From the IMG/VR virus record IMGVR_UViG_3300004369_000654, positions 1 to 24,773 of that record: 24,773 nucleotides of DNA; one strand, given 5' to 3'. Positions 57 to 18,723 of this stretch are shown piece after piece. A model generated the notes under the pieces. It was given only the letters and a program-made list of their open reading frames with translations. It did no database searches and was not told the DNA's origin. The translations under genes and the position numbers were made by a program. The DNA comes from a virus. Numbering within the stretch: position 1 is the stretch's first letter; every line of letters starts with the position of its first letter.

Positions 57-2042
57 ATGAACAAATTCGATAAAAACTTTCATCTAAATATGTCTCCTTT
101 ATATGCTGTATTTGTTTTCATGCTGTTTATGTTATGGGCAAGTGAAGTAAAAGGTGATGAAATAGAAGAAATTGTTGTAACTGCTCAACAAGAACGAGTG
201 GTCAAGGCAGACCCAATTACTAGCAGTAGTTTGATGAGTGCTATTATGCCAGTCTTTACCTGGAATGCAGGTGGCTATGGTGGCTTTGTAGGATACAATG
301 AGCGAGGTGCTCAAACATCACATACATCAGTTTATGTAAATGGTATTCCAGCAAATGATCCTGGAGCAAGTTGGTATGATTTTGGACATGACTTTGCTAG
401 TGGTCAAACAGTAAAAGTTATTTCAGGTGCTAATGGTGTTTTATACAGCTCAGGTAGTATGGCTGGAACAGTACTAATACAAGATACTATTGAAAGAGGC
501 ATAACACTAAGGATGGAAGATGAGATTAAGTTTGCTCGTGTGGCTCCTATAGATCAGTTAGAGTTCAGTATGGTTAATACTGGTATGGATAGTGTTCGTA
601 ATGACAATGACGAAGAAGACAATTACGAAAACAAAACAGCAAGGTTTAATGTAGATGCAGGTGACTTTACTATAGTAGGTAAGTTTACTGAATACAAATA
701 CGACTATGATAATTGTTTTGATTATAACTGGGGTCAAAGTAACGACTGCTTACAAGACGGCCAAAGGTATAATGTTGCTATTAGAAATGATTACATCACA
801 ATAGGCAGAAACTATAATACAGCAGAATACTTTACTGAATTAGATCCTACATACACAAACGAAAGTTATAGAGATTATTTTAGAATTGGTAATCAAGTAG
901 AACTTAGTAATAGTTTGAATGTTGCATTTGGTATAGATGTAGAAAAACAATATTATAATACCAGTAGTTGGCAAAATGTTGAAGGCACAGAACTTGTTGA
1001 AGGTTACAATATAATACCAGGTTCCTATACAGATGACAATTTAAGTTATAATGATGGTACTTTGTTGCCTTTATGGGACGGCTTCTTAAAACCAGATTTA
1101 AATAATCCTTTTGAAGTACTTGATGGAAATGGTATTTACACCTTAACACAAACTGATCTAAAGTACTCAGATGAAAATGGTGGTATATATTTTCAAGCCA
1201 ATGCTAACTTTATTTTAAATTATAACTTTGGTATTAGATTAGGCAATGATGATCAGAATGCTCTTAGACTGGGTATAGAAAAAGGAGACTTCTTTTTTAA
1301 CATTGGTAACAGTTTTAGAAAAGCAAACTTATATGAAAAGTTTGGTGATGGAGTTGTACAAGGCAATGAGGAACTAGAGCCTGAAAAAGGTGTAGGTGTT
1401 GAATTAGGATATGGTGTATTAAGTGTATTCATGTATGATTTTGAAGAAGCAATAGAATATGTTCCAGGATATTATACAGATGTTATTACAACAACATTGG
1501 AACTTAATGATGATTTATCTGTAAATAAAGACGGCACATATGGTGGTTGTGTATTAGATCCTAATTATACAGCATCAGATGGTATGCCATTAGGGTGTGT
1601 TTATACATTAGTAGAAGACAATAATCCAGTTTATACTATGCCTACTTATGCTAACACAGGAGAATACACCACAGCAGGTATGAGATATGCAAATAACTTT
1701 GGTCCTTTTTTTGTAATGCTAAAATATACAGATACAGATCAAACCAGAGTACCAAAATATGCAGGTGTTTTACAATACAACCAAGACTTCTTTAATGTGA
1801 ATTTTAGATTAAAATATGCATTTAATTTGGATAGAAAACCTGGACCATATGATGTATTGGAAGAAGGACAGGAGTATTTGGAAGATTTAAATAAGTTAAA
1901 TTTGTATGTGACCAAAGAGTTTGCAAATGGTTTAACAGTTTCCTTTAAAGCAGAAAACATAACAGACGAAGTAGTAGAGGTTGTTCCTTTTTATAATACA
2001 CAAGGTGCAGAATATTACTTGACATTAGGGTATAAGTGGTAG
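57..2042 (+). CDS. TonB-dependent outer-membrane receptor
   Basis: A 661-residue protein with the layout of TonB-dependent transporters, which move iron complexes, vitamins or sugars across the Gram-negative outer membrane using energy from TonB-ExbBD. A signal peptide is visible (hydrophobic core about residues 14-28). It is followed by a TonB box-like EEIVVTA at 37-43, a short plug domain (about 45-145, with VYVNGIP and ISGANGVLYSSGS matching the family's DG(V/I)P and GP-x-x-LYGS segments), and a barrel rich in alternating aromatic strands. The chain ends in GYKW; a terminal aromatic is the usual beta-barrel assembly signal. The length is at the short end of the family. GGAG at 48-51 sits five bases before the ATG, so the start is firm. 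The stop is only 11 bases before uvsW, which places it in the viral genome. The substrate cannot be read from sequence. Nothing suggests decay: the frame is intact and codon use resembles its neighbours. Confidence 0.88.
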   Translation: MNKFDKNFHLNMSPLYAVFVFMLFMLWASEVKGDEIEEIVVTAQQERVVKADPITSSSLMSAIMPVFTWNAGGYGGFVGYNERGAQTSHTSVYVNGIPANDPGASWYDFGHDFASGQTVKVISGANGVLYSSGSMAGTVLIQDTIERGITLRMEDEIKFARVAPIDQLEFSMVNTGMDSVRNDNDEEDNYENKTARFNVDAGDFTIVGKFTEYKYDYDNCFDYNWGQSNDCLQDGQRYNVAIRNDYITIGRNYNTAEYFTELDPTYTNESYRDYFRIGNQVELSNSLNVAFGIDVEKQYYNTSSWQNVEGTELVEGYNIIPGSYTDDNLSYNDGTLLPLWDGFLKPDLNNPFEVLDGNGIYTLTQTDLKYSDENGGIYFQANANFILNYNFGIRLGNDDQNALRLGIEKGDFFFNIGNSFRKANLYEKFGDGVVQGNEELEPEKGVGVELGYGVLSVFMYDFEEAIEYVPGYYTDVITTTLELNDDLSVNKDGTYGGCVLDPNYTASDGMPLGCVYTLVEDNNPVYTMPTYANTGEYTTAGMRYANNFGPFFVMLKYTDTDQTRVPKYAGVLQYNQDFFNVNFRLKYAFNLDRKPGPYDVLEEGQEYLEDLNKLNLYVTKEFANGLTVSFKAENITDEVVEVVPFYNTQGAEYYLTLGYKW

Positions 2043-2048
2043 TATAAT
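2019..2048 (+). promoter_or_regulatory. sigma70 promoter for uvsW (TTGACA-18-TATAAT)
   Basis: TTGACA at 2019-2024 and TATAAT at 2043-2048 are separated by 18 bases: a 12/12 match to the host vegetative consensus. It lies inside the last codons of the receptor gene and the short gap after it. The expected transcription start (about 2054-2055) falls on the ATG of uvsW. Confidence 0.75.
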
Positions 2049-2053: not shown

Positions 2054-3511
2054 ATGGGTAAATGTGTTTTAGAAATCAGAGATGAAGTGAATGTTCGCTT
2101 TAAAGGTCTTGATGTAAAAGCAAGACGTAAGATTTCTGACGCCTGTAAATATTTTTTACCACATGCTTATCATATGCCGGCATACAAGTTAGGCAGATGG
2201 GACGGTTGTGTAAGGTACTGCGATATTGGAGGCAGGACATATTTCCATTTGTTGGATAAACTGGTTCCAATAATTACAGACGAAGGTTATGAAATTGAGA
2301 TACAGGATCACAGAAAGGCATGGGAATTTAATTTTGAGCCTGTAACACAAACAAGTTATGATAGTGTAAAATGGCCTAAAAAACATCCAGCAGAAGGTGA
2401 GCCAATTATATTGAGGGACTATCAGGTTGATATAATCAACAAGTTTTTAGAAAACACACAATGCTTACAAGAAATTGCCACAGGTGCAGGTAAAACACTT
2501 ATAACTGCCGTACTAAGTCATAAATGTGAGGAGTATGGCAGGACAATAGTTATAGTACCAAATAAGGATTTAGTGGTACAAACAGAAAAAGATTACAAAA
2601 ACTTAGGCCTTGATGTGGGTGTATTGTATGGAGACAGAAAGGAATATGATAAAACTCATACTATTTGTACATGGCAAAGTTTAAGTATATTAGAAAAGAA
2701 AAGTAAAAACTATGAAGCAGACTTTCCTATAGATGAATTTTTAGATGGAGTTGCCTGTGTAATGGTGGATGAAGTGCATAAAGCAAAAGCAGATGTACTT
2801 AGAAATTTACTTAGTGGTGTATTTGCTAATGTCCCTATCAGATGGGGGCTAACAGGAACTATCCCTAAGGAAGAATATGATGCAGTAGGTTGTACTTGTA
2901 GTTTAGGGCCTGTTGTAGGAAAAATGAGTAGTAAAGAGTTACAGGACATGGGTGTTCTTGCAGACTTAGATATAAGTATTTTGCAATTACAAGATGGAAT
3001 GATACAATTCGGAAACTATGCTCAAGAGTTGAAATGGCTTGTTACTGATGAAAAAAGGCTAAAAGAACTATCTGAAATTATTAAAGGTGTTGCTGTGAAT
3101 GGTAACACATTGGTACTTATAGATAGATTAGCAACAGGAACAAGACTAGAAGAATTAAATCCAGATTGGGTGTTTGTTTCAGGTTCAATGAAACAAGCAG
3201 ACAGACAGGAAAATTATGATGATGTTTCTGAAATGGATAATAAAGTAATAGTTGCAACTTATGGTGTTGCGGCTGTTGGAATCAATATACCAAGAATATT
3301 TAACTTAGTTATGTTGGAACCTGGTAAAAGTTTTGTAAGAGTTATACAAAGTATAGGCAGAGGTATTAGAAAAGCCTCTGACAAAGACTATTTAAATGTA
3401 TTAGATGTTACAAGTAATTTAAAGTATAGTAAAAGACATTTAACAAAACGCAAACAGTTTTACAAAGAACAAGGTTTTAGATTTCAGGTAGTAAAAATTG
3501 ATTACAAATAA
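2054..3511 (+). CDS. uvsW: UvsW-like superfamily 2 DNA helicase
   Basis: A 485-residue homologue of T4 UvsW (503 residues), an SF2 helicase that unwinds R-loops and branched DNA and drives fork regression during recombination-dependent replication. The N-terminal domain has the GRWDG segment (47-51), matching the GNWDG of T4 UvsW. Helicase motifs follow in order: RDYQ (121-124), Walker A ATGAGKT (142-148), DEVH box (239-242), GLTGT motif III (265-269), and IQSIGRGIRK motif VI (431-440). All catalytic motifs look intact. There is no Shine-Dalgarno sequence before the ATG; the -10 element ends five bases upstream, so the message may be leaderless. In T4 uvsW is expressed late, so a strong sigma70 promoter here would be a change of timing. 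Confidence 0.93.
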   Translation: MGKCVLEIRDEVNVRFKGLDVKARRKISDACKYFLPHAYHMPAYKLGRWDGCVRYCDIGGRTYFHLLDKLVPIITDEGYEIEIQDHRKAWEFNFEPVTQTSYDSVKWPKKHPAEGEPIILRDYQVDIINKFLENTQCLQEIATGAGKTLITAVLSHKCEEYGRTIVIVPNKDLVVQTEKDYKNLGLDVGVLYGDRKEYDKTHTICTWQSLSILEKKSKNYEADFPIDEFLDGVACVMVDEVHKAKADVLRNLLSGVFANVPIRWGLTGTIPKEEYDAVGCTCSLGPVVGKMSSKELQDMGVLADLDISILQLQDGMIQFGNYAQELKWLVTDEKRLKELSEIIKGVAVNGNTLVLIDRLATGTRLEELNPDWVFVSGSMKQADRQENYDDVSEMDNKVIVATYGVAAVGINIPRIFNLVMLEPGKSFVRVIQSIGRGIRKASDKDYLNVLDVTSNLKYSKRHLTKRKQFYKEQGFRFQVVKIDYK

Positions 3512-6108: not shown

Positions 6109-6457
6109 AGTCTATGAAATAAAATTCAAAGATGGCATGGTTTATTACGGTTACACAGCAAAACCTTTTGAAATGAGAATGGCTGAGCATATAAATAGTA
6201 GCCAAAAAGGCAAGAACAAACTATATAAAAAAATGCGAAATGCAGAATACGATTGTGATTGTAGAGTCGTTAATCAATTCCCCACAATGGAAGAAGCATT
6301 GGATTGGGAAAAGAAATTAATTAGTAAAACTCCACATAAATTAAAACTTAATTCAAGTTGGGGTGGTGAAAATGGAGAAAACAATTTTAGGCGGTGGAAA
6401 CAACAGGATATCATTAAAAAACATTTCAAAAGGAAAAAGACCAAATACAAAGTTTAG
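6095..6457 (+). CDS. GIY-YIG family nuclease
   Basis: A 120-residue protein with the GIY-YIG nuclease core. The two signature strands appear as KVYEI (5-9) and YYGYT (17-21). The conserved Arg is R28 in EMRMAEH, and the metal-binding Glu is probably E72 in DWEKKLI. The C-terminus is very basic (FRRWKQQDIIKKHFKRKK), suitable for DNA contact. The length fits a stand-alone GIY-YIG domain. It could be a free-standing homing endonuclease (T4 Seg-like) or a nuclease acting on host or repair DNA. It overlaps both neighbours, which argues for a resident gene rather than a recent homing insertion. Confidence 0.8.
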   Translation: MANYKVYEIKFKDGMVYYGYTAKPFEMRMAEHINSSQKGKNKLYKKMRNAEYDCDCRVVNQFPTMEEALDWEKKLISKTPHKLKLNSSWGGENGENNFRRWKQQDIIKKHFKRKKTKYKV

Positions 6458-6704
6458 TCATCCTGCTTATACGAGGTATCCCCATTTGAAAGAAAAAGGG
6501 CCAACAGATGCAGTTTATACAGATTGGAAAAGAGTTTTTGCTTGGAAGCCTGTAAAATGTTTAGACGGAGAGATAGTTTGGCTGAAATATGTATTTAAAA
6601 GAACAAGGACAGTAGAATGGACACCTCCACAATTTCCACCAAATGCTTTTAATAGAACAGAATATAGTACCTGGGAAGGTATTTTAAATATGAAAATGAG
6701 GTAA
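6372..6704 (+). CDS. Unrecognised 110-residue basic protein
   Basis: Starts inside the 3' end of the GIY-YIG gene (86-base overlap). ATG 6372 is preferred over an upstream GTG at 6363 because GGTGGTGA precedes the ATG. The N-terminal third is low-complexity and basic; the second half looks folded (VYTDWKRVFAWKPVKCLDGE and a Trp/Pro-rich segment WTPPQFPPNAFNRTEY). No family is recognised. Given the overlap, part of the N-terminus may not be meaningful and the true start could lie further in. The stop is followed at once by metK. Confidence 0.6.
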   Translation: MEKTILGGGNNRISLKNISKGKRPNTKFSHPAYTRYPHLKEKGPTDAVYTDWKRVFAWKPVKCLDGEIVWLKYVFKRTRTVEWTPPQFPPNAFNRTEYSTWEGILNMKMR

Positions 6705-6706
6705 TT

Positions 6707-7798
6707 ATGTATCAATTTACAAGTGAAAGTGTAAGTAAAGGGCACCCAGATAAAGTAGCAGATTTAATTTCAGATGCTGTAGCAAATTATATTATAGATA
6801 AAAATATTAATCACAGAGCGGCGGTAGAAACACTAGTAACAACAAATATGGTTACACTTGCTGGTGAATACAAGAGTGATAAGTTTGATAAAGTTTATAT
6901 TGATAAACTAGTTAGGGCAGTAGTTAGAGATATCGGTTATGAACAAGAAGGATTCCATTGGGAAAATTTAAAAATTTATAATGAATTACATGGACAATCA
7001 CCTGATATAGCATTGGGTACAGATGATTTTGGTGCAGGTGATCAAGGACTTATGTTTGGTTATGCATGTAATGAAACAGAAAATTATATGCCAAGTGCTA
7101 TTCACTACAGTCACAGAATACTTAGAAAACTGCAAAGCGAAAGAACAAATGGTATATTATGGTTAGGTCCAGACAGCAAAAGCCAAGTTACAATGAAATA
7201 TGAAAGCATTAACAAACCTTTAGAAATAGAAAAAATTGTTTGTAGTACCCAACATAGTGAAGACAGAGACATCAAAGTTGTAAGGCAAAATGTTGAAGAA
7301 ATTATCAGGGACGAACTTAAAGAAATAAATTTAAGTAATGTAGAATTTTTAATAAACCCAACAGGTAGATTTGTTATTGGCGGACCTGATGGAGACACAG
7401 GACTAACAGGCAGAAAAATTATTGTTGATACTTATGGCGGATATGCTCCACATGGTGGCGGCGCATTTAGTGGTAAAGATTGCACAAAGGTTGATAGAAG
7501 TGCGGCTTACATGGCCAGATACTTGGCAAAGAATATTGTGGCAAGTGGCAAAGCCCAAAATGCCACAGTCCAATTAAGTTATGCTATTGGTGTAAAAGAA
7601 CCAACCAGTTTATATGTTTATGCAGATGGACAAATAAGAAAAGAAATTGCAGATTGGTTTATAGATAATGTAGATCTTACTCCTAAAGGTATTATAGACA
7701 AGTTTAATTTATTTGAATTAGACTTAACTAGAACAACCAATTACGGTCATTTTGGTAGATTAGATTTACCATGGGAAAAGGTAGATATATGGAATTAA
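6707..7798 (+). CDS. metK: S-adenosylmethionine synthetase
   Basis: A 363-residue MetK, which makes SAM from methionine and ATP, releasing phosphate and pyrophosphate. Diagnostic motifs are present: GHPDK (12-16), GAGDQGLMFGYA (109-120), DTGLTGRKI (230-238) and the phosphate-binding GGGAFSGKD (250-258). It is about 20 residues shorter than the E. coli enzyme (384) but spans all three repeats, so it should be active. GAGGT lies just before the ATG. It overlaps apt, forming a metK-apt pair. Viral MetK would raise SAM for methyltransferases or polyamine synthesis; no methyltransferase is seen in this window. Confidence 0.96.
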   Translation: MYQFTSESVSKGHPDKVADLISDAVANYIIDKNINHRAAVETLVTTNMVTLAGEYKSDKFDKVYIDKLVRAVVRDIGYEQEGFHWENLKIYNELHGQSPDIALGTDDFGAGDQGLMFGYACNETENYMPSAIHYSHRILRKLQSERTNGILWLGPDSKSQVTMKYESINKPLEIEKIVCSTQHSEDRDIKVVRQNVEEIIRDELKEINLSNVEFLINPTGRFVIGGPDGDTGLTGRKIIVDTYGGYAPHGGGAFSGKDCTKVDRSAAYMARYLAKNIVASGKAQNATVQLSYAIGVKEPTSLYVYADGQIRKEIADWFIDNVDLTPKGIIDKFNLFELDLTRTTNYGHFGRLDLPWEKVDIWN

Positions 7799-8328
7799 AA
7801 GATAGTATAAGAACAGTACCTGACTTTCCTATAGAAGGAATACAGTTTAGGGACATTACAAGTGTGCTAGAACGCCCAGAAGCCTTCAATAAAGCACTTA
7901 TTGATATGACTGCTGTATGTATGATGTTTAATGCTACAAAAATTGTAGCAATAGAAAGCAGAGGCTTTTTATTTGCTAGTCCTATTGCTAGAGATATGGA
8001 ACTTCCTCTAATACTTGCTCGTAAGCCAGGTAAATTACCTAATCCAACTTACCAAAGAGATTATAGTTTAGAGTATGGAAAATCAACAATTCATATACAA
8101 CAAAACTCTGATTTGACAATACACGATAAAATTGTTATAATAGATGACTTAATTGCAACTGGTGGTACCGCAAAAGCAATAGCAGGTCTTATAAGTCAAT
8201 GTTGGAATGTTCCAAAAGAAAATATTTTAGTTTTAGGTTTAATTGATCTGTTTGAACTAGGTGGTAGCTCTATGCTTAGAGATCAAGGCTACAATGTAGA
8301 AACTATTATTGAATTTGAAGGAAAGTAA
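7789..8328 (+). CDS. apt: Adenine phosphoribosyltransferase
   Basis: A 179-residue enzyme of the Apt family: adenine + PRPP gives AMP + PPi. It matches E. coli Apt closely: residues 6-27 (IRTVPDFPIEGIQFRDITSVLE), ESRGFLF (56-62), KPGKLP (79-84) and the PRPP-binding IVIIDDLIATGGTA (115-128). ATG 7789 is chosen over the in-frame ATG at 7771 because the protein then begins where bacterial Apt does and an AAAGG lies 7-8 bases upstream; it overlaps metK by 10 bases. Salvaging adenine freed from SAM metabolism or degraded host DNA would be its role. A perfect sigma70 promoter lies inside the gene. Confidence 0.95.
   Translation: MELKDSIRTVPDFPIEGIQFRDITSVLERPEAFNKALIDMTAVCMMFNATKIVAIESRGFLFASPIARDMELPLILARKPGKLPNPTYQRDYSLEYGKSTIHIQQNSDLTIHDKIVIIDDLIATGGTAKAIAGLISQCWNVPKENILVLGLIDLFELGGSSMLRDQGYNVETIIEFEGK
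8113..8141 (+). promoter_or_regulatory. Intragenic sigma70 promoter within apt (TTGACA-17-TATAAT)
   Basis: TTGACA at 8113-8118 and TATAAT at 8136-8141 with a 17-base spacer match the consensus at all 12 positions. The start would be near 8148, about 180 bases before the clamp-loader-like gene. It overlaps the codons for the Apt PRPP loop, so chance cannot be fully excluded. Confidence 0.6.
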
Positions 8329-8795
8329 TGCCTAAAAAACCACAAATACCGTTAAAAGATATAATGGCGGCAATAGATAAAAAAGATAGAAACTTTTATA
8401 ATAATCTATCTGATGAAGGTAAAAAAGCCTTTAGTGCCTGGATGATGATGAGGTATTGCAGTAGTGTGCAGGGAAGAAATGCCGCAGATTATATTTTTAT
8501 GACAAATGAATGTGTAAATTATCAGTTTAGTGAGGTAAGCAAACATCCTGAATTGCAATGGTTATTACTAAGTGTATGTGGAGTTGGTTCTGTACAATTT
8601 CATCCATATATAAAACCGCCTAACAGCAGGAAGAAAAAAAGCAAAGTATTTGATTTTATATATGAAACTTTCCCCCATATGAAAGCAGAGGATATAAATC
8701 ATTTAATAGAGCTCAACAGTAAAGAGGAACTAAAAGAATTAGCAGTAGCACACGGATACGATGATAAAACAATCGGAGACATATTTGGAAAATAA
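8328..8795 (+). CDS. Probable clamp-loader small subunit (gp62-like)
   Basis: A 155-residue protein whose pattern recalls the small clamp-loader subunit (T4 gp62) as found in marine T4-like phages: FSAWMMMRYCSS (about 35-46), then NECVNYQFSEVSKHPELQWL, a basic linker (NSRKKKSKV) and a C-terminal helical region. In T4, gp62 joins gp44 to load the sliding clamp gp45. The match is from memory and by pattern only, so it is moderate. Neither gp44 nor gp45 is in the window. AAGGAAAG precedes the ATG, and it overlaps apt by one base (TAATG). Confidence 0.5.
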   Translation: MPKKPQIPLKDIMAAIDKKDRNFYNNLSDEGKKAFSAWMMMRYCSSVQGRNAADYIFMTNECVNYQFSEVSKHPELQWLLLSVCGVGSVQFHPYIKPPNSRKKKSKVFDFIYETFPHMKAEDINHLIELNSKEELKELAVAHGYDDKTIGDIFGK

Positions 8796-9459
8796 ATGCA
8801 AATGGTGTGAAAAAACATTTATGAGTGAGAGAACTTTAAGTGCTCATATGTGTATTAAAAAAAGACGTTGGGCTGATAAGGATTTAACTCACACCAGATT
8901 AGGCTATAGAGTCTTTCAAATGTTTTATGAAATAAATACCACAGCAACTAAATCTAAAACACATGAAGATTTTATTAAAAGTCAGTATTACGAAGGGTTT
9001 GTTAAATTTGGAAGAAGTTGTGTTGTTAATGAATATTTACAGCCTGAAAAATTTGCAGAATGGCTTATAAAAGAAGGTAAAAAATTAAAAGACTGGTGTA
9101 AGGATAGCCTTTATGACGAATATCTTTTAACTTATGTAAAAAAAGAACCAGGACTAAAAGCATTGGAAAGAACAATAATATACCTAAATAATTGGAGTGC
9201 AGAATCAGGAAATGATTGGCAAGACTATTTCAAAACAGTAAGTCCAGCAAGGGCAGTACATGATTTGAGAAGTGCAAAGATAAGTCCTTGGGTATTGTAT
9301 TTAAGTGAAACAGGAGGAGAATTACTTACAAGATTTAATGATGAACAGGTAAAAATGATTCAACATATTATCGATACAACATTTTGGATGAAGCAGTTTG
9401 GACACAATAAAGAAGAAGTTAAAGAAATAAAGAATGCATGTGAGGTAGCAGGATTATGA
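8761..9459 (+). CDS. Zinc-finger-containing protein, function unknown
   Basis: A 232-residue protein starting with a C2HC-type zinc knuckle: C13, C16, H29 and C31 (CKWCEKTF, then LSAHMC). It is followed by a basic stretch (KKRRWADKD) and a long helical region with many aromatics (FVKFGRSCVVNEYLQPEKFAEW; PWVLYLSETGGELLTRFN). I recognise no named T4 family. The ATG at 8761 lies 35 bases inside the preceding gene; it is the only in-frame ATG before the zinc residues, though a TTG nearer the previous stop could be used. The finger and basic stretch suggest nucleic-acid binding, possibly in replication given the neighbours. Confidence 0.75.
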   Translation: MIKQSETYLENKCKWCEKTFMSERTLSAHMCIKKRRWADKDLTHTRLGYRVFQMFYEINTTATKSKTHEDFIKSQYYEGFVKFGRSCVVNEYLQPEKFAEWLIKEGKKLKDWCKDSLYDEYLLTYVKKEPGLKALERTIIYLNNWSAESGNDWQDYFKTVSPARAVHDLRSAKISPWVLYLSETGGELLTRFNDEQVKMIQHIIDTTFWMKQFGHNKEEVKEIKNACEVAGL

Positions 9460-9746
9460 AAGATTTAGTAGAAAAAGTATCGCAATGGCACCATGATAGA
9501 AATCTTATTGATGGTGCAACTAGTAAAGATCAAGTTTTAAAACTTGTACAAGAAGTTGGAGAACTTTCAGATAGTGTATGTAAAGGAGAAGATATCAAAG
9601 ATGATATTGGAGATTGTTTAGTTATATTAATTAATATAGCAGAACGAGAAGGAACAACATTAGAAGAATGCTTAGAAGTTGCTTATAATGACATTAAAGA
9701 TAGAAAAGGTCGTATGGTAGATGGTATCTTTGTAAAGGAAGAATAA
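9456..9746 (+). CDS. mazG: MazG-like nucleotide pyrophosphohydrolase
   Basis: A 96-residue single-domain MazG protein. It has the metal-binding pattern of the family: EVGE at 33-36 (E-x-x-E) and DIGD at 50-53 (in place of E-x-x-D), followed by the hydrophobic helix CLVILINIA and the typical YNDIKDRKGRMVDGIFVKE ending. The enzymes hydrolyse (d)NTPs to the monophosphate, and phage versions are thought to adjust nucleotide pools or the starvation signal ppGpp. ATGA overlap with the upstream gene and TAATG with the downstream one indicate coupled translation. Confidence 0.9.
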   Translation: MKDLVEKVSQWHHDRNLIDGATSKDQVLKLVQEVGELSDSVCKGEDIKDDIGDCLVILINIAEREGTTLEECLEVAYNDIKDRKGRMVDGIFVKEE

Positions 9747-10315
9747 TGAAGTTTGATTTTGATGTAGATATAGATATGGCTAACAGAGACGAGTTTCTAG
9801 AGTTAGTTAGTCATACACCTGCTAGTATTGAAAAAGATAACAAATATACAAAACACAACACAGGTGTCTATTTTCAAAATATACCAAAATTTCCACTACA
9901 AGGTTACAGTACAATAGATCACAAACAGGCAGAACAACAAGGCTGGTTTAAAGTAGATTTTTTAAATAATCATATATACACTGGTATAAAAGATGAAACA
10001 CATCTGGATAAACTTATTTCAATAGAGCCTATGTGGGAACTATTTGAACACAAAGAAGTTGTAGAACAATTATTCCATATCAGTAATCATTTTGATATAA
10101 TTAAAAAACATCCGCCTACTAGTTTAGAACAACTAGCAATGATACTTGCAATAATTAGACCAGGCAAAAGGCACTTAGTTGGTAAAAGTTGGGAAGAAAT
10201 AGAAGCAGATGTTTGGGTCAAGCCTGAAGATGGTTCCTATTTTTTTAAGAAAAGTCACAGTTATGGTTATGCCTTAGCAATTATTGTACAATTAAACTTG
10301 ATTTGTGAAGGTTAG
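9746..10315 (+). CDS. Miniature C-family DNA polymerase palm-like protein
   Basis: A 189-residue protein that reads as a collinear, much reduced version of the bacterial Pol III alpha (DnaE) palm. FDFDVDIDMANRDEF (3-17) resembles PDFDVDFxxxxRDxV, which holds two catalytic Asp (here D6 and D8). KHNTGVYFQNIP (36-47) resembles the KHAGGVVIAP segment. WFKVDFLNNHIYTGI (67-81) resembles VKFDFLGLRTLTII, with D71 matching the third catalytic Asp. SLEQLAMILAIIRPG (126-140) resembles the FEDMIALVALFRPGP segment. FFKKSHSYGYAL (166-177) resembles FNKSHSAAYAL. The PHP, fingers and C-terminal domains of DnaE (over 1000 residues) are absent. Whether it polymerises DNA is unknown; it may be a repair enzyme or an exapted fold. 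The similarity is by eye. Confidence 0.6.
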   Translation: MKFDFDVDIDMANRDEFLELVSHTPASIEKDNKYTKHNTGVYFQNIPKFPLQGYSTIDHKQAEQQGWFKVDFLNNHIYTGIKDETHLDKLISIEPMWELFEHKEVVEQLFHISNHFDIIKKHPPTSLEQLAMILAIIRPGKRHLVGKSWEEIEADVWVKPEDGSYFFKKSHSYGYALAIIVQLNLICEG

Positions 10316-10692
10316 TCAGTTTTACGAACTAGTTGAACACCACGTCTTTTAATTCTTTTCTTAATTAAATTTTGCAATGAAGTCATAGGACCAAAAATTA
10401 TTTCTACATCTTTCATTACAAATGTGGATAGGAAAGGGGTGAATTCCTTCATTTCATGATTAAGAAAAATATCTATAGGTAGTTGTCTGTTTGATTCCCA
10501 CCACCACATATCACCATATTCTAAAAATTTACGTTTAATTTCTAATGATGGCATTTTATTTACATCATAAAAAGTCAGTATAGCATTGTCATGATTTACC
10601 ACAATACCAACGTATTCGTTCCCCCCATAGTTGATTCCTGTTATGAAAGGATATCTTTCTTGTGCCTCTGATATAAGTTCTGCTTTATCCAC
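10312..10692 (-). CDS. Unrecognised 126-residue protein, minus strand
   Basis: The only convincing minus-strand gene. It begins with GTG (complement of 10690-10692) and ends with a 4-base convergent overlap with the preceding gene. The product is soluble: ERYPFITGINYGGNEYVGIV, a WWWESNRQLPIDIFL segment (about 58-72) and a basic C-terminus (LIKKRIKRRGVQLVRK). I cannot assign it; similar aromatic-rich small proteins occur in marine T4-like phages as far as I recall, without function. No Shine-Dalgarno sequence precedes the GTG. A weak -10-like CATAAA with a TTGTAC 17 bases further upstream (minus strand) would place the start of the message at the GTG. Confidence 0.7.
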   Translation of the reverse strand: MDKAELISEAQERYPFITGINYGGNEYVGIVVNHDNAILTFYDVNKMPSLEIKRKFLEYGDMWWWESNRQLPIDIFLNHEMKEFTPFLSTFVMKDVEIIFGPMTSLQNLIKKRIKRRGVQLVRKTD

Positions 10693-10714
10693 AACTTTAT
10701 TTATGTTTCATTAT

Positions 10715-10722
10715 GATAAATA
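10715..10722 (+). promoter_or_regulatory. Late promoter GATAAATA before the 10749 gene
   Basis: GATAAATA matches the T4-type late promoter (TATAAATA in T4) at 7 of 8 bases and is identical to elements before four other virion-type genes in this window. The ATG lies 26 bases downstream of the element. Confidence 0.7.
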
Positions 10723-10748
10723 GTACAATATAAAGAGTTAAAAACCCT

Positions 10749-11558
10749 ATGAGTTATGGAGATTACAGATTATTTTTATACGATGAGATAGTTGATCTTG
10801 TGATCGGCTCTGACGGGTTATATGTGGATAACAGACCTATGAATAATAAAAGATTAACAGTACATAAAGGATTATCTAATGAGGTAATTTTTAATATTAG
10901 AAATAAAGATAGAAAGTTACAAAACGTAGATTCAAATATATTAAGAGGAACCTTAGTACATCCTGGAACAGGCAAAAGAATTTTTACTAGAGTTTTAGAA
11001 CATACAGGAAGTACTGGACAGGTAAAACTAAATTTTGCAGAATCTGATCTAACAAATTTAGATCCAGGATTATATCAGTTATACATTTCCAGAGAAACTT
11101 CAGAAGGTTCAGAGCTTCCTGTATTTGCAGATCAAAACAATAATATTAAATTTGATATAGAGATAAAAGATCAAACTAAACAAACACCTGTTGATACGCA
11201 AACTGCAAATGTAAGTCAATTTATGCAAGTCACAAATACAAATAATGGAGACAATTCAAATGTATTTGTAACATCTGCACTAAAAGGAAATCAAAAAAGA
11301 AACTTTACTTCTTGTTTACATAGTATTGCAATTCATCCTGATACATTTACAGGAAATTTTTCAATACAGGCAAGTTGTGTAGAAAATACACCTAATACAG
11401 CAAACAATAGCAGTGATTGGTTTAATGTTGTAAGTAATGTTTCTTTAACATCTAATTCTACAATTTATCATCATACTTTTCAAGTTAATGCAAATTACAT
11501 AAGAGTATTAAGTGAACCCATCGCAGGAAATATATCGTTAGTACAATTAAGAAATTAA
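10749..11558 (+). CDS. Probable virion structural protein, Ig-like
   Basis: A 269-residue, beta-rich protein. The first half (about 20-140) has the pattern of an immunoglobulin-like or baseplate upper-protein N-terminal domain (ILRGTLVHPGTGKRIF, then LDPGLYQLYISRETSEG, ending FDIEIKD). A Thr/Asn-rich linker follows (about 145-165). The second half resembles many phage virion domains with alternating strands (SDWFNVVSNVSLTSNST; QVNANYIRVLSEPIAGNI) ending VQLRN. A GATAAATA late promoter and no sigma70 promoter precede it, consistent with a structural role. It stands alone between replication genes. The ribosome site is weak (AAAGAG). Confidence 0.65.
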   Translation: MSYGDYRLFLYDEIVDLVIGSDGLYVDNRPMNNKRLTVHKGLSNEVIFNIRNKDRKLQNVDSNILRGTLVHPGTGKRIFTRVLEHTGSTGQVKLNFAESDLTNLDPGLYQLYISRETSEGSELPVFADQNNNIKFDIEIKDQTKQTPVDTQTANVSQFMQVTNTNNGDNSNVFVTSALKGNQKRNFTSCLHSIAIHPDTFTGNFSIQASCVENTPNTANNSSDWFNVVSNVSLTSNSTIYHHTFQVNANYIRVLSEPIAGNISLVQLRN

Positions 11559-11587
11559 TTGACTTTTACATACTTTTCGTGTATAAT
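11559..11587 (+). promoter_or_regulatory. sigma70 promoter for the primase gene (TTGACT-17-TATAAT)
   Basis: TTGACT at 11559-11564 and TATAAT at 11582-11587, spacer 17 bases: 11 of 12 consensus matches. The intergenic gap is only 35 bases and the promoter fills it. Six bases separate the -10 from the primase ATG, so +1 is expected on the A of the ATG. Confidence 0.78.
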
Positions 11588-11593
11588 TAATGC

Positions 11594-12571
11594 ATGGATA
11601 TAGACTTTTTAGTAGAAAAGGTGCATCGTCTCCTTTTGGATAATCTTCCAATAAGAACTAGCAAAACTCCTAGTGGCTGGAACACTATGGACTGTCCTAT
11701 GTGTAGTGATAAAAGAAAACGTGGAGGTTTAATTACAACAGGAGCAAAAATATCATATAATTGTTTTAACTGTGGTTTTACAACTGGATGGGAACCTAAT
11801 CCTACATTAGGAAAAAAATATAAAGACTTAGCAACTATATTAGGTGCTGATCAGCAAGACATACATAAAGTTACAATAGAATTATTGAAGTTTGCAGAAG
11901 AATTAGAAACTGAAAGTACCACAGACTATGTTTATAACTTACAAAAATTTAATACAGAACAAATTCCTGAATCAGCAATGGCGGTAGATGAATTGCCAGA
12001 TGAACATGCTGTAAAGGAATATGCAAGGCAAAGAGGACTACTTGGTCTATATCCACTGCTATACTTTGATGAAAAGTTATACAAGCAGAGATTGGTAGTC
12101 CCCTTTACATATAACAATGACGTTGTAGGCTGGACAGGAAGGCATATCAGCCCTCCTGACAAACAGACGCCTAAGTACTTACATAAAATGCAACCAGGAT
12201 ATGTTTTTAACATAGACAAATTTGCAGACAGTAAAAGACAAATTGTTATTGTAACCGAGGGTGTATTTGATGCGATACTGATAGATGGTGTTGCAATACA
12301 AGGTAATAGTGTTGGGCCTGAACAGGCACATTTAATTGAAAAGTTAGGTAAAAGAATTATAGTATGTCCTGACAGAGATAAAGCAGGTATAGAGTTGATG
12401 TTGCAGGCCGCTGAACTAGGGTGGGAAGTAAGTTTCCCGCCTTGGCATGTGGATTGTAAAGATGCCGCAGATGCAGTACAAAGGTATGGCAGACTAGCAA
12501 CTGTAAGCAGTATTATAAAACATGCAACAAACAATAAACTTAAAATAGAAGTAAAAGCGAAGATGATATGA
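11594..12571 (+). CDS. DNA primase (T4 gp61-like)
   Basis: A 325-residue primase that would make RNA primers for lagging-strand synthesis with the gp41-type helicase encoded two genes on. A zinc finger is formed by C34, C37, C57 and C60 (CPMC and CFNC). The TOPRIM catalytic domain has TEGVFDAI (220-227, the metal-binding Glu) and DRDKAG (259-264). Between them, RLVVPFTYNNDVVGWTGR (165-182) is the usual pre-TOPRIM segment. Length is close to T4 gp61 (342). No Shine-Dalgarno sequence is present, in keeping with a leaderless message. It overlaps the next gene by ATGA. Confidence 0.92.
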   Translation: MDIDFLVEKVHRLLLDNLPIRTSKTPSGWNTMDCPMCSDKRKRGGLITTGAKISYNCFNCGFTTGWEPNPTLGKKYKDLATILGADQQDIHKVTIELLKFAEELETESTTDYVYNLQKFNTEQIPESAMAVDELPDEHAVKEYARQRGLLGLYPLLYFDEKLYKQRLVVPFTYNNDVVGWTGRHISPPDKQTPKYLHKMQPGYVFNIDKFADSKRQIVIVTEGVFDAILIDGVAIQGNSVGPEQAHLIEKLGKRIIVCPDRDKAGIELMLQAAELGWEVSFPPWHVDCKDAADAVQRYGRLATVSSIIKHATNNKLKIEVKAKMI

Positions 12572-13224
12572 AATTATATGTAAATGGATGTAGTTTTAGT
12601 TACGGTAATACTTTAGATAATAAGTCTGCATGGCCAGATTTTATGGAAGGTTATGATGTTATAAATGAAAGTTGGATAGGCAGTAGTAATAAAAGAATAC
12701 TAAGACGCACAATAGAATACATAGAAACTCATGCTTACCATGATACATTTTTTGTTATACAACTGTCTGATTGGTTTAGAGATGAATGGTACGATGCAGA
12801 ATTTGATACCTGGATAGGTATGTGTAAAGATAGTGTTGTTTTAGATGACAGATCATATAACAGAAACGATATAGATCAAATAGAACTAAACAGAAAAGTA
12901 AAAAATTTTATACAACATTCATTATTACATAGATCAATAAAAACTGTTGAGCAAGAAACATTTAACTTATTAAATACTGCAATAGCATATTTTAATCAAA
13001 ACAATGTAAATTATATTTTTACAGGAATGAGTTCTAGATGTATGCCACACGATAATAATGTTGATATAATTATACCAGGACATTTTGTTAAACCTATTAG
13101 TATTATTGCTGGAAATAACATTATCAGCACTAGTGACAGCCATCCAAACGAAGCAGGACATAAACTGTTCGCAAGATATATATTAAATGAGATAAAAAAT
13201 TATGAGCGATATCCAGAATTATAA
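12568..13224 (+). CDS. SGNH/GDSL hydrolase-like protein
   Basis: A 218-residue protein with SGNH-hydrolase features: block I NGCSFSYG (6-13) with candidate nucleophile S9; GSSNKRI (38-44) as the Gly block; and TSDSHPNEAGH (188-198) supplying D190 and H192 near the C-terminus, as in many phage SGNH proteins. The family cleaves ester bonds in lipids, acetylated sugars or polysaccharides. No signal peptide is present, so it acts inside the cell or in the virion. Its position between primase and helicase, overlapping both (4 and 23 bases), is odd for an esterase. The assignment to the fold is moderate; the substrate is unknown. Confidence 0.65.
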   Translation: MKLYVNGCSFSYGNTLDNKSAWPDFMEGYDVINESWIGSSNKRILRRTIEYIETHAYHDTFFVIQLSDWFRDEWYDAEFDTWIGMCKDSVVLDDRSYNRNDIDQIELNRKVKNFIQHSLLHRSIKTVEQETFNLLNTAIAYFNQNNVNYIFTGMSSRCMPHDNNVDIIIPGHFVKPISIIAGNNIISTSDSHPNEAGHKLFARYILNEIKNYERYPEL

Positions 13225-14584
13225 CGAAGAAACACAAGAGCTGTTTATAAGATTTTTATTGAGCGATAACGATTTATTCGCAAGATGTCAAAATATTGTA
13301 AAACCTGAATTTTTTAGCAGTAAGTTTAGGCCTGCTGTAAAATTATTTCAAAGTCATGCAAAAGATTTCAATAGCATTCCTACACCTGAGCAAGTAAGTG
13401 CTGTATCTGGATTGCAATTAGAAACAATAGAAAATGTAACAGTAGATCATCATAATTGGTTTTTAAAAGAGTTTGAAATATTTTGCAGACACAAAGCATT
13501 AGAAAAAGCAATTATTGAAAGTACTGACTTGTTGGAAAAACAAGACTATGGTACTGTGGAAAATAAAATCAGAGACGCCAGTCAAGTTGGATTAGTTAAA
13601 GATTTAGGATTAGAATATTTTGAAAATCCCAAAGAGCGACTACAATGGATAAAAGATCAAGCAGGTGCAATTAGTACAGGTTGGAAAGGCATAGATCACA
13701 AACTTTATGGCGGACTTAATAGGGGTGAGATGACTATTTTTGCTGGAGGTTCTGGTGCTGGTAAGAGTTTGTTTTTACAGAACTTTGCAGTTAATTGGGC
13801 ATTAGCAGGATTTAATTGTGTTTATATTAGTTTAGAGTTAAGTGAGCAGTTAATTAGTATGCGACTTGATAGTATGGTTTCAGGTTATGGTACAAAAGAA
13901 ATAATGAAAAATATGGACGATGTCGATCTCAAGGTTCGTATGAAAGCCAAAGGTGCAGGTAAATTAAGAGTAAAACAGATGCCAAATGGTATTAATGCAA
14001 ATGATATCAGAACATTCTTACGTGAATATGAAATACAATGTGGTGAAAAAGTGGATTGTTTAATGGTTGATTACTTGGATCTTATGATGCCTATAAGTAC
14101 AAAAGTAAGTGGCAGTGATTTGTTTATTAAAGACAAGTATGTATCTGAAGAGTTGCGTAATTTAGCAACTGAAAGAGACTTATTATTTGTTACTGCTTCA
14201 CAGTTAAACAGAGGTGCAGTGGAGGAAATAGAGTTTGATCATCATCACATAGCAGGTGGTATAAGTAAAGTACAGACAGCAGATAATGTTGTGGGTATTT
14301 TTACAAGTAATGCTATGCGAGAAAAAGGCAGGTATCAGATACAGTTTATGAAAACACGTTCTAGTAGTGGTGTAGGCACAAAAATTGATTTGAGATTCGA
14401 TCCTGACACACTCAGAATAGAAGATTTACAAGAAGGTGATGAGGATTCTGTCACAATGAGTACCACTAGTTTAGTTGAACAATTAAGCAGAAGTAAAACA
14501 ATAAAAGCAGATCAACCTGAATCTAAAGATGTAATATCAGGTGCAATGAACATGAGAGAATTCTTTAAGAAGAATGATCAATAA
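13202..14584 (+). CDS. Replicative DNA helicase (T4 gp41 / DnaB-like)
   Basis: A 460-residue hexameric SF4 helicase (T4 gp41 is 475). It unwinds DNA 5' to 3' at the fork and works with the primase. The RecA-like core shows STGWKGIDHKLYGGLNRGEM (158-177), Walker A GGSGAGKS (182-189), the strand VYISLELSE (207-215), Walker B MVDYLDLM (288-295) and the switch region TASQLNRG. The N-terminal 140 residues form the helical collar. The ATG lies inside the hydrolase gene's end; a GAGAT-like site is weak, so coupling with the upstream gene is likely. A late promoter follows directly after the stop. Confidence 0.93.
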   Translation: MSDIQNYNEETQELFIRFLLSDNDLFARCQNIVKPEFFSSKFRPAVKLFQSHAKDFNSIPTPEQVSAVSGLQLETIENVTVDHHNWFLKEFEIFCRHKALEKAIIESTDLLEKQDYGTVENKIRDASQVGLVKDLGLEYFENPKERLQWIKDQAGAISTGWKGIDHKLYGGLNRGEMTIFAGGSGAGKSLFLQNFAVNWALAGFNCVYISLELSEQLISMRLDSMVSGYGTKEIMKNMDDVDLKVRMKAKGAGKLRVKQMPNGINANDIRTFLREYEIQCGEKVDCLMVDYLDLMMPISTKVSGSDLFIKDKYVSEELRNLATERDLLFVTASQLNRGAVEEIEFDHHHIAGGISKVQTADNVVGIFTSNAMREKGRYQIQFMKTRSSSGVGTKIDLRFDPDTLRIEDLQEGDEDSVTMSTTSLVEQLSRSKTIKADQPESKDVISGAMNMREFFKKNDQ

Positions 14585-14587
14585 AAT

Positions 14588-14595
14588 GATAAATA
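14588..14595 (+). promoter_or_regulatory. Late promoter GATAAATA before the 14623 operon
   Basis: GATAAATA lies four bases after the helicase stop and 27 bases before the GTG start at 14623. It marks the switch from replication genes to the late block. Confidence 0.75.
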
Positions 14596-14622
14596 GCATT
14601 ATATATTTTAATTGGAGATATT

Positions 14623-14892
14623 GTGCGTAAAACAAGAAGCATCCTAGAAGAGCTAAATCAAATTTCTGTAGATAGAGACAGAAATCATGTAGTTTCTAAT
14701 AGAGGTGAGCATGTTATTGCAAGTGCTATTAGTTTATTAGAGCAAATTGATGCCTATTATGATCCTGAGACTGCAAAAGAATTAAGGAATAGACTAGTTA
14801 ATAGTATTAAAGGACGCGACGTCAAAAAGTTCTCCAGAGGAATTTCTAAAATAATTAAGGAAGCTCAGAGAGAACAAGATAATGCTAATTAA
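14623..14892 (+). CDS. Small helical late protein, function unknown
   Basis: An 89-residue protein starting with GTG, with GGAG at 14614-14617 upstream. It appears fully helical and charged (residues 1-11 MRKTRSILEEL; 35-43 AISLLEQID; 63-71 SIKGRDVKK; 75-86 GISKIIKEAQRE). First gene of the unit that starts at the late promoter 14588. I do not recognise it. Small helical late proteins in T4-like phages include prohead core components, and the adjacent genes look head-related, but that link is only positional. It overlaps the next gene by 11 bases. Confidence 0.7.
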   Translation: MRKTRSILEELNQISVDRDRNHVVSNRGEHVIASAISLLEQIDAYYDPETAKELRNRLVNSIKGRDVKKFSRGISKIIKEAQREQDNAN

Positions 14893-15718
14893 TGAAATAG
14901 TTAATAATACTCAAAGCCTTACAGAAAAATTACAATACGATTCTTCAAAGCTCTCTGATGTAAAAATGGACAATGTAACCTATAAGTGGGATAGTAACGC
15001 CCGTGTTTATAGGGAACCAGATGGCAGTATTATAGATAAAAATGGTCCTCTTTTTTATGATTTAGTAAGGCACAAAGATAATATGAATGCTAGAGTAGGA
15101 GGTACTCCCGGAGATTGGCAAGACAGAATGGCCAGGAAGGGAGTTGTTAAAGGTACTCGTAGTGCCATAGCAAAAAAAATAGGCCTTAGTGGTATGGGTA
15201 AAACAAAACGACTAGATCCTAAAGCAGGATTAGGCGCTAAAGTAGGTGCTACGGCAGGTGAGTACATCGGCAAGGGAATGGACAAAATACACAATTTTGT
15301 AAAAGGTGCAATTGGTAATACATTTAAAAAAGATCCTACCAATCAAAAGAGATATTTAAATATGCAAGGTAGTGCAAAAGGTATAGAACTTTTAAAGCAA
15401 AAAGTAAGAACAGGAGAAATTACCATGGATGAGGCAGGTGAGGTCTTACAATTTGTCCAAGGCATACATCCAAGTCAAAAAACAAAACAACCTACTAATT
15501 TCCAGAAGGCTTGGAGAATGTGGTATGCACAAAGTGATAGATATAAACAAGCATTGGATCAAAACAAAAAAGAAAGGCAAAAAATACAAAGACAGGTGGA
15601 TAAAGTAAAACAGGATAATGAAAAAATACGAGCCGCAAATGCACAAATGCCATTAAATCAAAGGACGCCAAAAAAATCCTTTATATTAGGACCTGATGGT
15701 AACCCAGCGTCAATATAG
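14882..15718 (+). CDS. Basic late protein, possible internal head protein
   Basis: A 278-residue, Lys/Arg/Gly/Gln-rich protein. The N-terminus MLINEIVNNTQSLTEKL has the look of the short acidic or hydrophobic leaders on neighbouring proteins but lacks a perfect cleavage site. PGDWQD (76-81) recurs in the 17771 product. A Gly/Ala-rich basic segment (about 97-125) and a C-terminal coiled-coil-like stretch (residues 223-245, QNKKERQKIQRQVDKVKQDNEKI) follow. It has no enzyme motif. Basic composition and position after a late promoter fit a DNA-associated virion protein, but the function is not known. Confidence 0.7.
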   Translation: MLINEIVNNTQSLTEKLQYDSSKLSDVKMDNVTYKWDSNARVYREPDGSIIDKNGPLFYDLVRHKDNMNARVGGTPGDWQDRMARKGVVKGTRSAIAKKIGLSGMGKTKRLDPKAGLGAKVGATAGEYIGKGMDKIHNFVKGAIGNTFKKDPTNQKRYLNMQGSAKGIELLKQKVRTGEITMDEAGEVLQFVQGIHPSQKTKQPTNFQKAWRMWYAQSDRYKQALDQNKKERQKIQRQVDKVKQDNEKIRAANAQMPLNQRTPKKSFILGPDGNPASI

Positions 15719-15720
15719 TC

Positions 15721-16977
15721 ATGAAATTTGCAGAAATATCAGAAAGTTTTATAAGACAAATAATCTTAGAAGCAGAAAATAAAAACACTCACTTAGAACA
15801 TCTGGAAGATAATATTTTTAACAAAGGTTTTCAAGGTGCCAAAGAAGCAATAAAATATTTGTATAGCCTACATGAAATGCTGGAAGGTCACAGTAAATCT
15901 GCAATATCAATGACAACTAAATGGGACGGTGCTCCAGCCATTATAGCAGGTAAAGATCCAGAAACAGGAAAATTTTTTGTAGGAACCAAAGGCGTATTTG
16001 CTCAGAAACCTAAAATAAATTTCACAGATAAAAACATAGAAGAAAATCATCCTGCAGAAGAATTACAGGACAAATTAAAAATAGCATTAAGATATCTTAG
16101 AAACTTAAATTGGAATACAGTGGTTCAGGGTGACATGCTTTTTACTAAAAAGGATTTACAAGTTACAAAAATAGACGGTGAAGAGGTATTGTTATTTAAG
16201 CCAAACACTATTGTTTATGCTGTACCTACTGAAAGCGATCTTGCAAAAGAAATTTTAAATGCAGAAATAGGAATTGTTTGGCATACTGAATATACTGGAG
16301 GCCCTACATTAGCAGACACCCAAGCAAAGTTTGGTTTCGATAGTAGTCAATTAGGAACTGCAAATGGTGTTTGGCACAGAGACGCAATTATTAAAGATTT
16401 TAGTGGTACAGTAACTTTTACAGCAGAAGAAAGTCAAGACATAATGGGTGCTATTACAGAAGCAAATAATTACTTAGAAAATATTGATGCAGAAACATTT
16501 GGATGGTTAGAAAAAGGTAATGATTTAATAGGAAAAGATTTTTTACAACAGTTAAAGGCACATGTAAATAATAACATCAGAGCTGGTGCATTTGACGAGC
16601 CTACTAAATTTGCACAAGGATTTGTACAAAAATATATAGACTTTATGCAAAAGAAAATAAACGGCTATAAAACACAGGCTAAACAGGACGAAATGACAGA
16701 CAAGTTAGTACAAGGTGTAAAGTTTATCAAACAAAATGTACCTCAAATTGTTGCTGTATATGATTTATATCTTAAACTAATAGAAGCAAAAGTAAAAATA
16801 GTTAAAAAATTAGAAACAATTAGACAGTTACCTACATTTAAGGAAACTGAAAACGGATATGAAGTTACAGGCGAAGAAGGATTTGTTGCTGTAGATAGAA
16901 TGGGTAACGCATTAAAACTGGTAGATAGACTGGAGTTTAGTAGATTAAACTTTGGCACAGGGAGGCCTGGAGCATAA
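15721..16977 (+). CDS. Ligase-like (KWDG) late protein of a conserved marine-phage family
   Basis: A 418-residue protein of a family common in marine T4-like phages (I believe DUF6267, from memory). The leader MKFAEISESFIRQIILEA ends in an I-L-E/A site like that of the T4 prohead protease gp21. The body shows features of covalent nucleotidyltransferases (DNA/RNA ligases): KWDG at 67-70 as motif I, FFVGTKGVF (85-93) as the following strand pair, and VVQGDML (134-140) in the place of motif III. This suggests it binds ATP or a nucleotide, or keeps the fold without activity. The second half is mostly helical (about 250-380). There is no Shine-Dalgarno sequence; the start is two bases after the previous stop. 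Confidence 0.72.
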   Translation: MKFAEISESFIRQIILEAENKNTHLEHLEDNIFNKGFQGAKEAIKYLYSLHEMLEGHSKSAISMTTKWDGAPAIIAGKDPETGKFFVGTKGVFAQKPKINFTDKNIEENHPAEELQDKLKIALRYLRNLNWNTVVQGDMLFTKKDLQVTKIDGEEVLLFKPNTIVYAVPTESDLAKEILNAEIGIVWHTEYTGGPTLADTQAKFGFDSSQLGTANGVWHRDAIIKDFSGTVTFTAEESQDIMGAITEANNYLENIDAETFGWLEKGNDLIGKDFLQQLKAHVNNNIRAGAFDEPTKFAQGFVQKYIDFMQKKINGYKTQAKQDEMTDKLVQGVKFIKQNVPQIVAVYDLYLKLIEAKVKIVKKLETIRQLPTFKETENGYEVTGEEGFVAVDRMGNALKLVDRLEFSRLNFGTGRPGA

Positions 16978-17774
16978 TGGAATTACAACTCATAGATAAA
17001 GAAATATCAGAAGCCAGGCTTTACAGAACAAGTTCAGCATTTGGACAACTTACAGGAAAAGATATATCAGAACTTTTATATTTAAATACATTAGTCACAT
17101 ATATGTTATATAAGGACGATAAACAAACTGATTATGCAAAAGCAGTTGCAAGACAAACAACGCAATATGGAAAATACACTTTGTTTAGAAGTCATGCTAC
17201 AGATATGTACTTATTAGCATATATGGTGTCTGATCCAGATAACAAAAATGTTAAATTAAAAGATCATTTAATAAGTAAGAAATTTTTAAAAGAATTGCAG
17301 TTTGATAAAAGACGCCATTGGCAATTTGTTCAGGGCATATCTTTTGACAGAGTGAATGATAAAATAGCAAGTCCCTACCTTTTTAGACTAGAAAGCCAAT
17401 TAAAAATCACAAATTCCATGTATAAACAATTTCGTAGATTAGTTATGGATTGGGAAAAGTTAAAGTACAATCAAAGGCAATATGTGGTAACAAAAATTAC
17501 ACAGGAAATACGAAGATTAGGTAGAGGTAGTGAAATAATGGCACCTCTTACCACAATGTTAAAATATAAAAGATACAGAGTAAATCCTGACATAAACAAA
17601 CCATCTTTAGGAAGAAAAGTAGCAGGTGCGGCCGCAGGTGCTTTAGTAGGTCGTTTTGCAGGTAAGAAGATTGCACAAAAATTAGGAAAAGATTCAGATA
17701 AATATAAGAAAGTAGGAACAGGCTTAGGCGCAATAGCAGGTTATTGGGCCGGCGGAAGACAAAAACAATTATGA
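16977..17774 (+). CDS. Late protein with glycine-zipper C-terminus
   Basis: A 265-residue protein. MELQLIDKEISEA at the N-terminus contains I-S-E/A (10-13), a match to the T4 prohead protease cleavage rule. The middle is helical and basic. The C-terminal region (about 212-260) has two Gly/Ala-rich segments (VAGAAAGALVGRFAG and VGTGLGAIAGYWAGG) typical of glycine-zipper membrane-inserting helices, separated by a Lys-rich loop. A head protein able to insert in a membrane could help DNA entry; this is inference. GGAG lies about eight bases before the ATG. It overlaps the next gene by ATGA. Confidence 0.7.
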   Translation: MELQLIDKEISEARLYRTSSAFGQLTGKDISELLYLNTLVTYMLYKDDKQTDYAKAVARQTTQYGKYTLFRSHATDMYLLAYMVSDPDNKNVKLKDHLISKKFLKELQFDKRRHWQFVQGISFDRVNDKIASPYLFRLESQLKITNSMYKQFRRLVMDWEKLKYNQRQYVVTKITQEIRRLGRGSEIMAPLTTMLKYKRYRVNPDINKPSLGRKVAGAAAGALVGRFAGKKIAQKLGKDSDKYKKVGTGLGAIAGYWAGGRQKQL

Positions 17775-18361: not shown

Positions 18362-18370
18362 AAAAAAAAA

Positions 18371-18378
18371 GATAAATA
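18371..18378 (+). promoter_or_regulatory. Late promoter GATAAATA before the 18425 gene
   Basis: GATAAATA nine bases after the preceding stop. The following leader shares GTAAC(A/G)GC, TAGGAGAA and ATGGCACAA with the 18724 leader. Confidence 0.8.
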
Positions 18379-18387
18379 AATGTAACA

Positions 18388-18402
18388 GCATATTTTATAT
18401 GC
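18388..18402 (+). promoter_or_regulatory. 5' UTR hairpin, 18425 gene
   Basis: GCATAT - TTT - ATATGC forms a perfect six-pair stem in the untranslated leader, just after GTAACA. The paralogous leader at 18741 has a stem at the same place with different bases, so the structure may matter, for example for message stability. Confidence 0.5.
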
Positions 18403-18424
18403 AATAACATTTTAGGAGAATATA

Positions 18425-18667: not shown

Positions 18668-18683
18668 TCCGTAATAAACAAAT

Positions 18684-18713: not shown

Positions 18714-18723
18714 GTGGTAAAAT

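Follow-up and report, generated by a model that had tools for sequence, protein, structure and literature searches.

The gene for a T4 gp61-like DNA primase in the window, that is, the whole 24,773-base stretch of viral DNA that was analysed, is directly preceded by what is very probably (we put it at roughly 0.87) a real sigma-70-like promoter giving a leaderless primase mRNA, one case in a set that spans at least five gene families of a large, mostly uncultured marine phage group: those of the primase, a UvsW-like helicase, a DnaJ-like protein, a phosphoribosyltransferase-like protein and an alpha/beta-hydrolase-like protein. This reading is carried by the motif, its spacing, its conservation, its excess over controls and the absence of a Shine-Dalgarno (SD) sequence. 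The promoter would be of the host type and would presumably be used by the host RNA polymerase. The transcript is predicted to start at, or a few bases from, the A of the primase ATG, and the mRNA would be translated without an SD sequence, perhaps by the 70S-type initiation of leaderless messages. The sigma-70-type hexamers, and their contrast with the late-type GATAAATA motifs that stand before structural genes, suggest that transcription is early.

Table 1. Features of the window around the primase promoter and its sister site.
Feature	Position	Strand	Remarks
Sister promoter, TTGACA-18-TATAAT	2019..2048	+	-35 in last codons of TonB-receptor-like gene
UvsW-like helicase gene	2054..3511	+	phrog_16, 1.2e-70; start five bases after -10
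T4-late-type motif GATAAATAG	10715..10723	+	before structural gene preceding primase
Virion structural protein gene 5' of primase	10749..11558	+	phrog_14467; probably late
-35 element TTGACT	11559..11564	+	abuts stop codon of upstream gene
-10 element TATAAT	11582..11587	+	invariant in relatives
Six bases TAATGC, -10 to start codon	11588..11593	+	letters vary, length mostly 6
T4 gp61-like DNA primase gene	11594..12571	+	phrog_47, 8.3e-41; Toprim_2; coding-type variation in codons 2-13
DnaB-like replicative helicase gene (T4 gp41-like), 3' of primase	13202..14584	+	phrog_19, 1.4e-74

The original prediction placed TTGACT, a 17-base spacer and TATAAT in the 35-base gap before the primase, left six bases to the ATG and saw no ribosome-binding site. 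Re-reading confirms this exactly: 35 bases separate the end of the structural gene (11558) from the ATG (11594-11596), the spacer covers 11565-11581, and none of the SD-like words AGGA, GGAG, GAGG and AAGG occurs in the 15 bases tested upstream of the ATG. The site ranks second in a promoter scan of positions 6000-20000, with 11/12 matches. As in sigma-70-type promoters, the hexamers resemble TTGACA and TATAAT, lie 16-18 bases apart and are conserved around a spacer that varies, and the first T of the TATAAT lies 12 bases before the ATG, as in TA-led genes. The protein matches a primase profile and has a toprim-like domain, and a DnaB-like helicase is encoded nearby, as for T4 gp61-type primases; the gene order is structural protein, primase, one gene, then the helicase. 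T4-type late promoters consist of a single TATAAATA-like element that replaces -35 and -10. Such a late promoter was considered for the primase itself and rejected, since the motif is absent and a -35 and a TATAAT are present instead. Elsewhere in the window, a single ORF (5308-6108) seems, as a family guess, to start like a P-loop kinase and to resemble a nucleotidyltransferase in its second half.

The arrangement is strongly conserved at primase loci. In the first set of relatives (80 loci, of which L067 was dropped for its missing N-terminus), TATAAT lies six bases before the ATG in all 79 loci. Together with the UvsW loci and the window, the primase set comprises 120 loci. The 119 usable ones contain 62 distinct 60-base upstreams; for lack of upstream sequence or because of partial matches, one primase locus and four UvsW loci were dropped. 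An exact TATAAT is found in every one of the 62, at six bases from the ATG in 52, seven in 2, eight in 4 and nine in 4. The seven-to-nine-base cases form one group with the coding start ATG CAT CAT CAY, and in all 52 six-base upstreams the base before the ATG is a pyrimidine. Alignment from residue 1 with at least 119 bases upstream yielded 48 distinct sequences; here, as in the other counts, distinct sequences are not independent events. All six TATAAT positions are invariant among the 48, TTGAC is always present (TTGACT in 38, TTGACA in 10), and the spacer, whose letters vary, is 16 bases long in 14 and 17 in 34. The six-base length from -10 to ATG stays constant despite the changed spacer length, and the base before the ATG is T in 27 and C in 21. 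Codons 2-13 vary mainly at third positions with the amino acids kept, which supports this ATG as the start codon.

The same geometry had been claimed for two replication genes. A TATAAT just before the ATG is indeed common to both, but at the UvsW-like gene the spacer between TTGACA (2019-2024) and TATAAT (2043-2048) is 18 bases, and the ATG (2054) follows after five; at both sites, 35 bases lie between the first base of the -35 and the start codon. Among 97 UvsW loci, 93 were usable and gave 59 distinct upstreams, with an exact TATAAT five bases from the ATG in 36 and six in one; at a cut of 10/12 matches, 41 have the promoter at five to seven bases. The geometry is missing in the other 18, including the 250-kb relative G001 (L072), where no promoter was found at UvsW. 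In several UvsW clades the stretch is 17-24 bases long and includes an SD-like word, and other exceptions are loci with a small inserted gene. The gene in which the UvsW -35 lies (57-2042) encodes a TonB-dependent-receptor-like protein with a Plug domain, here in a phage. Its relatives have their own promoter, mostly leadered, at 41 distinct promoter sites, and no relative of the protein was found in the genome contigs searched.

The window is the whole record, and the scan of the rest of the genome was therefore made on relatives. Across 195 sequences totalling 2.66 Mb, with overlaps between loci, the strict pattern TTGAC-N17-19-TATAAT-N5-7-ATG has 103 distinct matches, whereas 60 letter-permuted motifs gave a mean of 0.62 and a maximum of 4 in the same sequences. 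Nine long relatives hold 26 matches against 0 for the reversed pattern. Seven of these 26 fall in G001 (250,519 bases), where one is closely followed by an ORF with an SD sequence and another does not lead into any ORF of 40 codons. A genome-wide scan had been named beforehand as the test that could overturn the idea, and in the relatives it shows the spacing in large excess. When the distance d is counted from the promoter as far as the first ATG that begins a 50-codon ORF, 420 distinct promoters with at least 11/12 matches show a two-peaked distribution: 107 at d 3-9, a single one at d 10-15 and 174 at d 16-59, with four at d 0 and 134 without a qualifying ATG. Most of the short-distance promoters belong to primase and UvsW, which partly reflects how the loci were chosen.

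This bias was avoided by picking three other G001 genes with the geometry, the DnaJ-like, phosphoribosyltransferase-like and alpha/beta-hydrolase-like genes, and fetching relatives by protein similarity alone (66, 80 and 20 loci, respectively; loci with fewer than 60 bases upstream were left out of the five-family comparison). For DnaJ, 28/44 distinct upstreams have the promoter at d 5-7 with ATG and 33/44 at d 5-9, and relatives of only about 36% identity still show the geometry. For the phosphoribosyltransferase, the count is 25/65 at d 5-7 with ATG, or 24/40 among relatives of at least 41% identity; some of these genes have a leader, sometimes with an SD sequence, or no such promoter. The hydrolase has 9/12 at d 5-7 with at least 10/12 matches, and 12/12 at d=6 with a looser cut. 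No promoter reaches the 10/12 cut in 10 DnaJ, 37 of the 65 phosphoribosyltransferase and 3 hydrolase upstreams. Several DnaJ genes sit, by eye, directly behind a terminator-like sequence and keep d 5-7. With this excess, the conservation and the three further families, the original prediction of a class of leaderless early transcripts rather than a coincidence is supported at the level of sequence, the 5' ends and the early timing being predictions.

Some DnaJ promoters carry an inverted repeat AGCACA...TGTGCT inside the spacer (L315, L323, L324, L328, L329 and others), and the DnaJ -35 of G001-like relatives is overlapped by a repeat TTGACA...TGTCAA (both by eye); these repeats are possible operators. 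G001 also encodes a ferredoxin and a ClpP-like protein besides the DnaJ-like one (L162, L173, L174), and its ferredoxin and ClpP genes have strong promoters ten bases before the ATG.

SD-like words occur in 2/157 leaderless-type upstreams of the five families, and in 0/54 distinct primase upstreams with d 5-7, against 85/138 leadered ones, a comparison set that covers d 15-39 only and includes some wrongly assigned starts. Other strongly promoted genes of the same phages are mostly leadered, often with an SD sequence, and in the window an SD-like word, from a slightly wider word list, stands at 14/24 gene starts. Since SD sequences are common elsewhere in these phages, the leaderless-type genes are the exception. 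The base before the ATG at d 5-7 is a pyrimidine in 54/54 primase and 41/41 UvsW upstreams. However, this is weaker evidence than it first seemed, as 72/138 leadered starts have one too.

It could be argued that AT-rich sequence produces such arrangements by chance, the more so since the total of promoter-like sites between positions 6000 and 20000 of the window shows no excess (60 found, 62.3 expected). However, the permuted and reversed motif controls and the conservation refute this, and we regard it as extremely improbable. It is also conceivable that the promoter is real while its short distance reflects genome compaction only, leaderless translation not being selected. Indeed, the gaps at primase and UvsW are short and the UvsW -35 lies within upstream coding sequence. 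However, the distance remains six bases although its letters, and even the spacer between -35 and -10, change, and the leadered promoters found at these loci are mostly spread over d 17 to 59. Moreover, the DnaJ genes behind terminator-like sequences have room for a leader, and the distances expected of very short leaders (d 10-15) are nearly absent. Compaction alone thus appears quite unlikely. A primase start further downstream, giving a normal leader, might be sought at a GTG ten codons into the frame, but by eye there is no SD sequence at a fitting distance from it, and the next in-frame ATG adjoins a CPMC motif, which we take to be zinc-finger-like. On the third-position variation in codons 2-13 such a start was rejected, and we rate it as very unlikely.

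Perhaps the phage simply follows a habit of its host, since some bacteria have many leaderless genes (PMC3160421). Any naming of the host is guesswork: the G001 ferredoxin comes closest to those of SAR86 and other, mostly marine, gammaproteobacteria, and five of its best ten genome matches are SAR86 records, a weak hint at SAR86 as host. In 61 genomes of the SAR86 family the strict pattern, which misses weaker host promoters, has 13 matches against 12 for its reverse, whereas G001 has 7 in 0.25 Mb against 0. The pattern being no commoner than the control in this family, the habit would be the phage's own if SAR86 is the host, and a habit taken over from the host seems unlikely. Eight of the 13 SAR86-family matches are one repeated site, TTGACTG..TATAAT with an ATG six bases on, present in 8/61 genomes (G013, G014, G021, G029, G042, G063, G066, G070); it is perhaps a cellular leaderless gene.

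If the primase mRNA is leaderless, its surroundings suggest what this may achieve. Of the 48 distinct primase sequences, 42 have enough upstream DNA for a motif count; 40 of these carry a NATAAATA motif 700-1000 bases before the primase, against 0.066 expected. Since a late-type GATAAATA motif precedes the structural gene and the 35-base gap between that gene and the primase yielded no terminator-like site, late RNA should read through the primase frame. On such read-through RNA the frame would have no SD sequence and would be translated inefficiently; only RNA begun at the primase's own promoter would be translated well, and this promoter would decide the timing of the primase. It is a plausible hypothesis that late read-through RNA yields no primase and that all of it is made from RNA begun at its own promoter. 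Such gating cannot be the general reason for the set, because several DnaJ genes sit behind terminator-like sequences. More generally, and tentatively, leaderlessness may be a regulatory device in which a start codon used only at the 5' end ties the translation of each gene to its own promoter, such that genes within late units are made only early. If this is true, a change in the state of the ribosomes in the course of infection might adjust all members of the set jointly. A precedent for transcript-dependent translation is provided by T4 e and soc, in which an RNA hairpin hides the SD sequence and the late transcript is the active one. There, as proposed here, the same ORF is translated from one transcript and not from the read-through one; here, by contrast, there is no SD sequence to hide and activity would lie with the early transcript. 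In the window, T4-late-type GATAAATAG motifs precede several genes, being found upstream of 10749, 14623 and 19164.

Among named phages, jumbo phages come closest in their primase, UvsW-like and DnaB-like proteins, namely PA5oct and its kin and Sinorhizobium phage Phosso; identity to PA5oct and kin is 35% for the primase, about 56% for the UvsW-like and about 55% for the DnaB-like protein. PA5oct (Arenbergviridae, Pseudomonas) shares the order structural protein, primase, helicase, and its primase gene gp261 has the same neighbourhood and promoter and a start codon six bases after TATAAT. It differs in starting with GTG and in an annotated start six bases upstream, at d=0. The sequence reads TTGACA-17-TATAAT-GTGCGC-GTG, in which the annotated GTG abuts the -10 (L196, 6385-6393); the second GTG is in frame, six bases on and preceded by C, and it is likelier to be the start codon than the annotated one. 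In PA5oct gp244, annotated as an exonuclease, the ATG that follows TATAAT after seven bases is the annotated start. Two of the five strict matches in PA5oct fit gene starts and the other three do not, and, unlike in the window, its UvsW lacks the leaderless geometry. Jumbo phage GAP32 and Salmonella phage PHA46 likewise have a TATAAT between structural gene and primase, but there a leader with an SD-like sequence precedes the ATG. No TATAAT was found at the corresponding place in Phosso.

Leaderless mRNA is a known kind of message; what appears new here is that several genes of T4-like jumbo phages form a deeply conserved set of this kind. In TA-led bacterial genes, a TA-like signal 12 bases before the start codon is taken to indicate leaderlessness (PMC3160421). 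The first T of the -10 about 12 bases before the start and the missing SD sequence are the same here, but the genes described in that source belong to cellular genomes, whereas this phage group otherwise often uses SD sequences. The two-peaked promoter distances resemble the leader lengths mapped in Lactococcus cremoris, with modes at <5 nt and ~40 nt (PMC10986495), and it is mostly the whole 70S ribosome that binds a leaderless mRNA, at its 5'-terminal AUG (PMC9031893). Among phages, lambda cI (PMC9031893, PMC3160421, PMC4488713) and PY54 cI and cro (PMC4488713) have +1 at the A of the AUG, as predicted here. They are switch genes of temperate phages at single loci, in contrast to replication and other genes in at least five families. 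The AR9 paper gives 5' UTRs of 26-491 nt for that phage and calls phage transcripts "often leaderless". In open-access titles and abstract openings, among the matches listed, no leaderless early promoter set is described for a T4-like or jumbo phage.

The examples of leaderless mRNA usually quoted from phages are individual repressor genes. Replication genes are among the members of the set described here, which extends from uncultured ocean phages to Pseudomonas phage PA5oct and would offer a natural system for studying the purpose of leaderless initiation. A correction of the start codon annotated for PA5oct gp261 is also suggested, and the presence of the geometry in this cultured phage makes 5'-end mapping in the laboratory possible.
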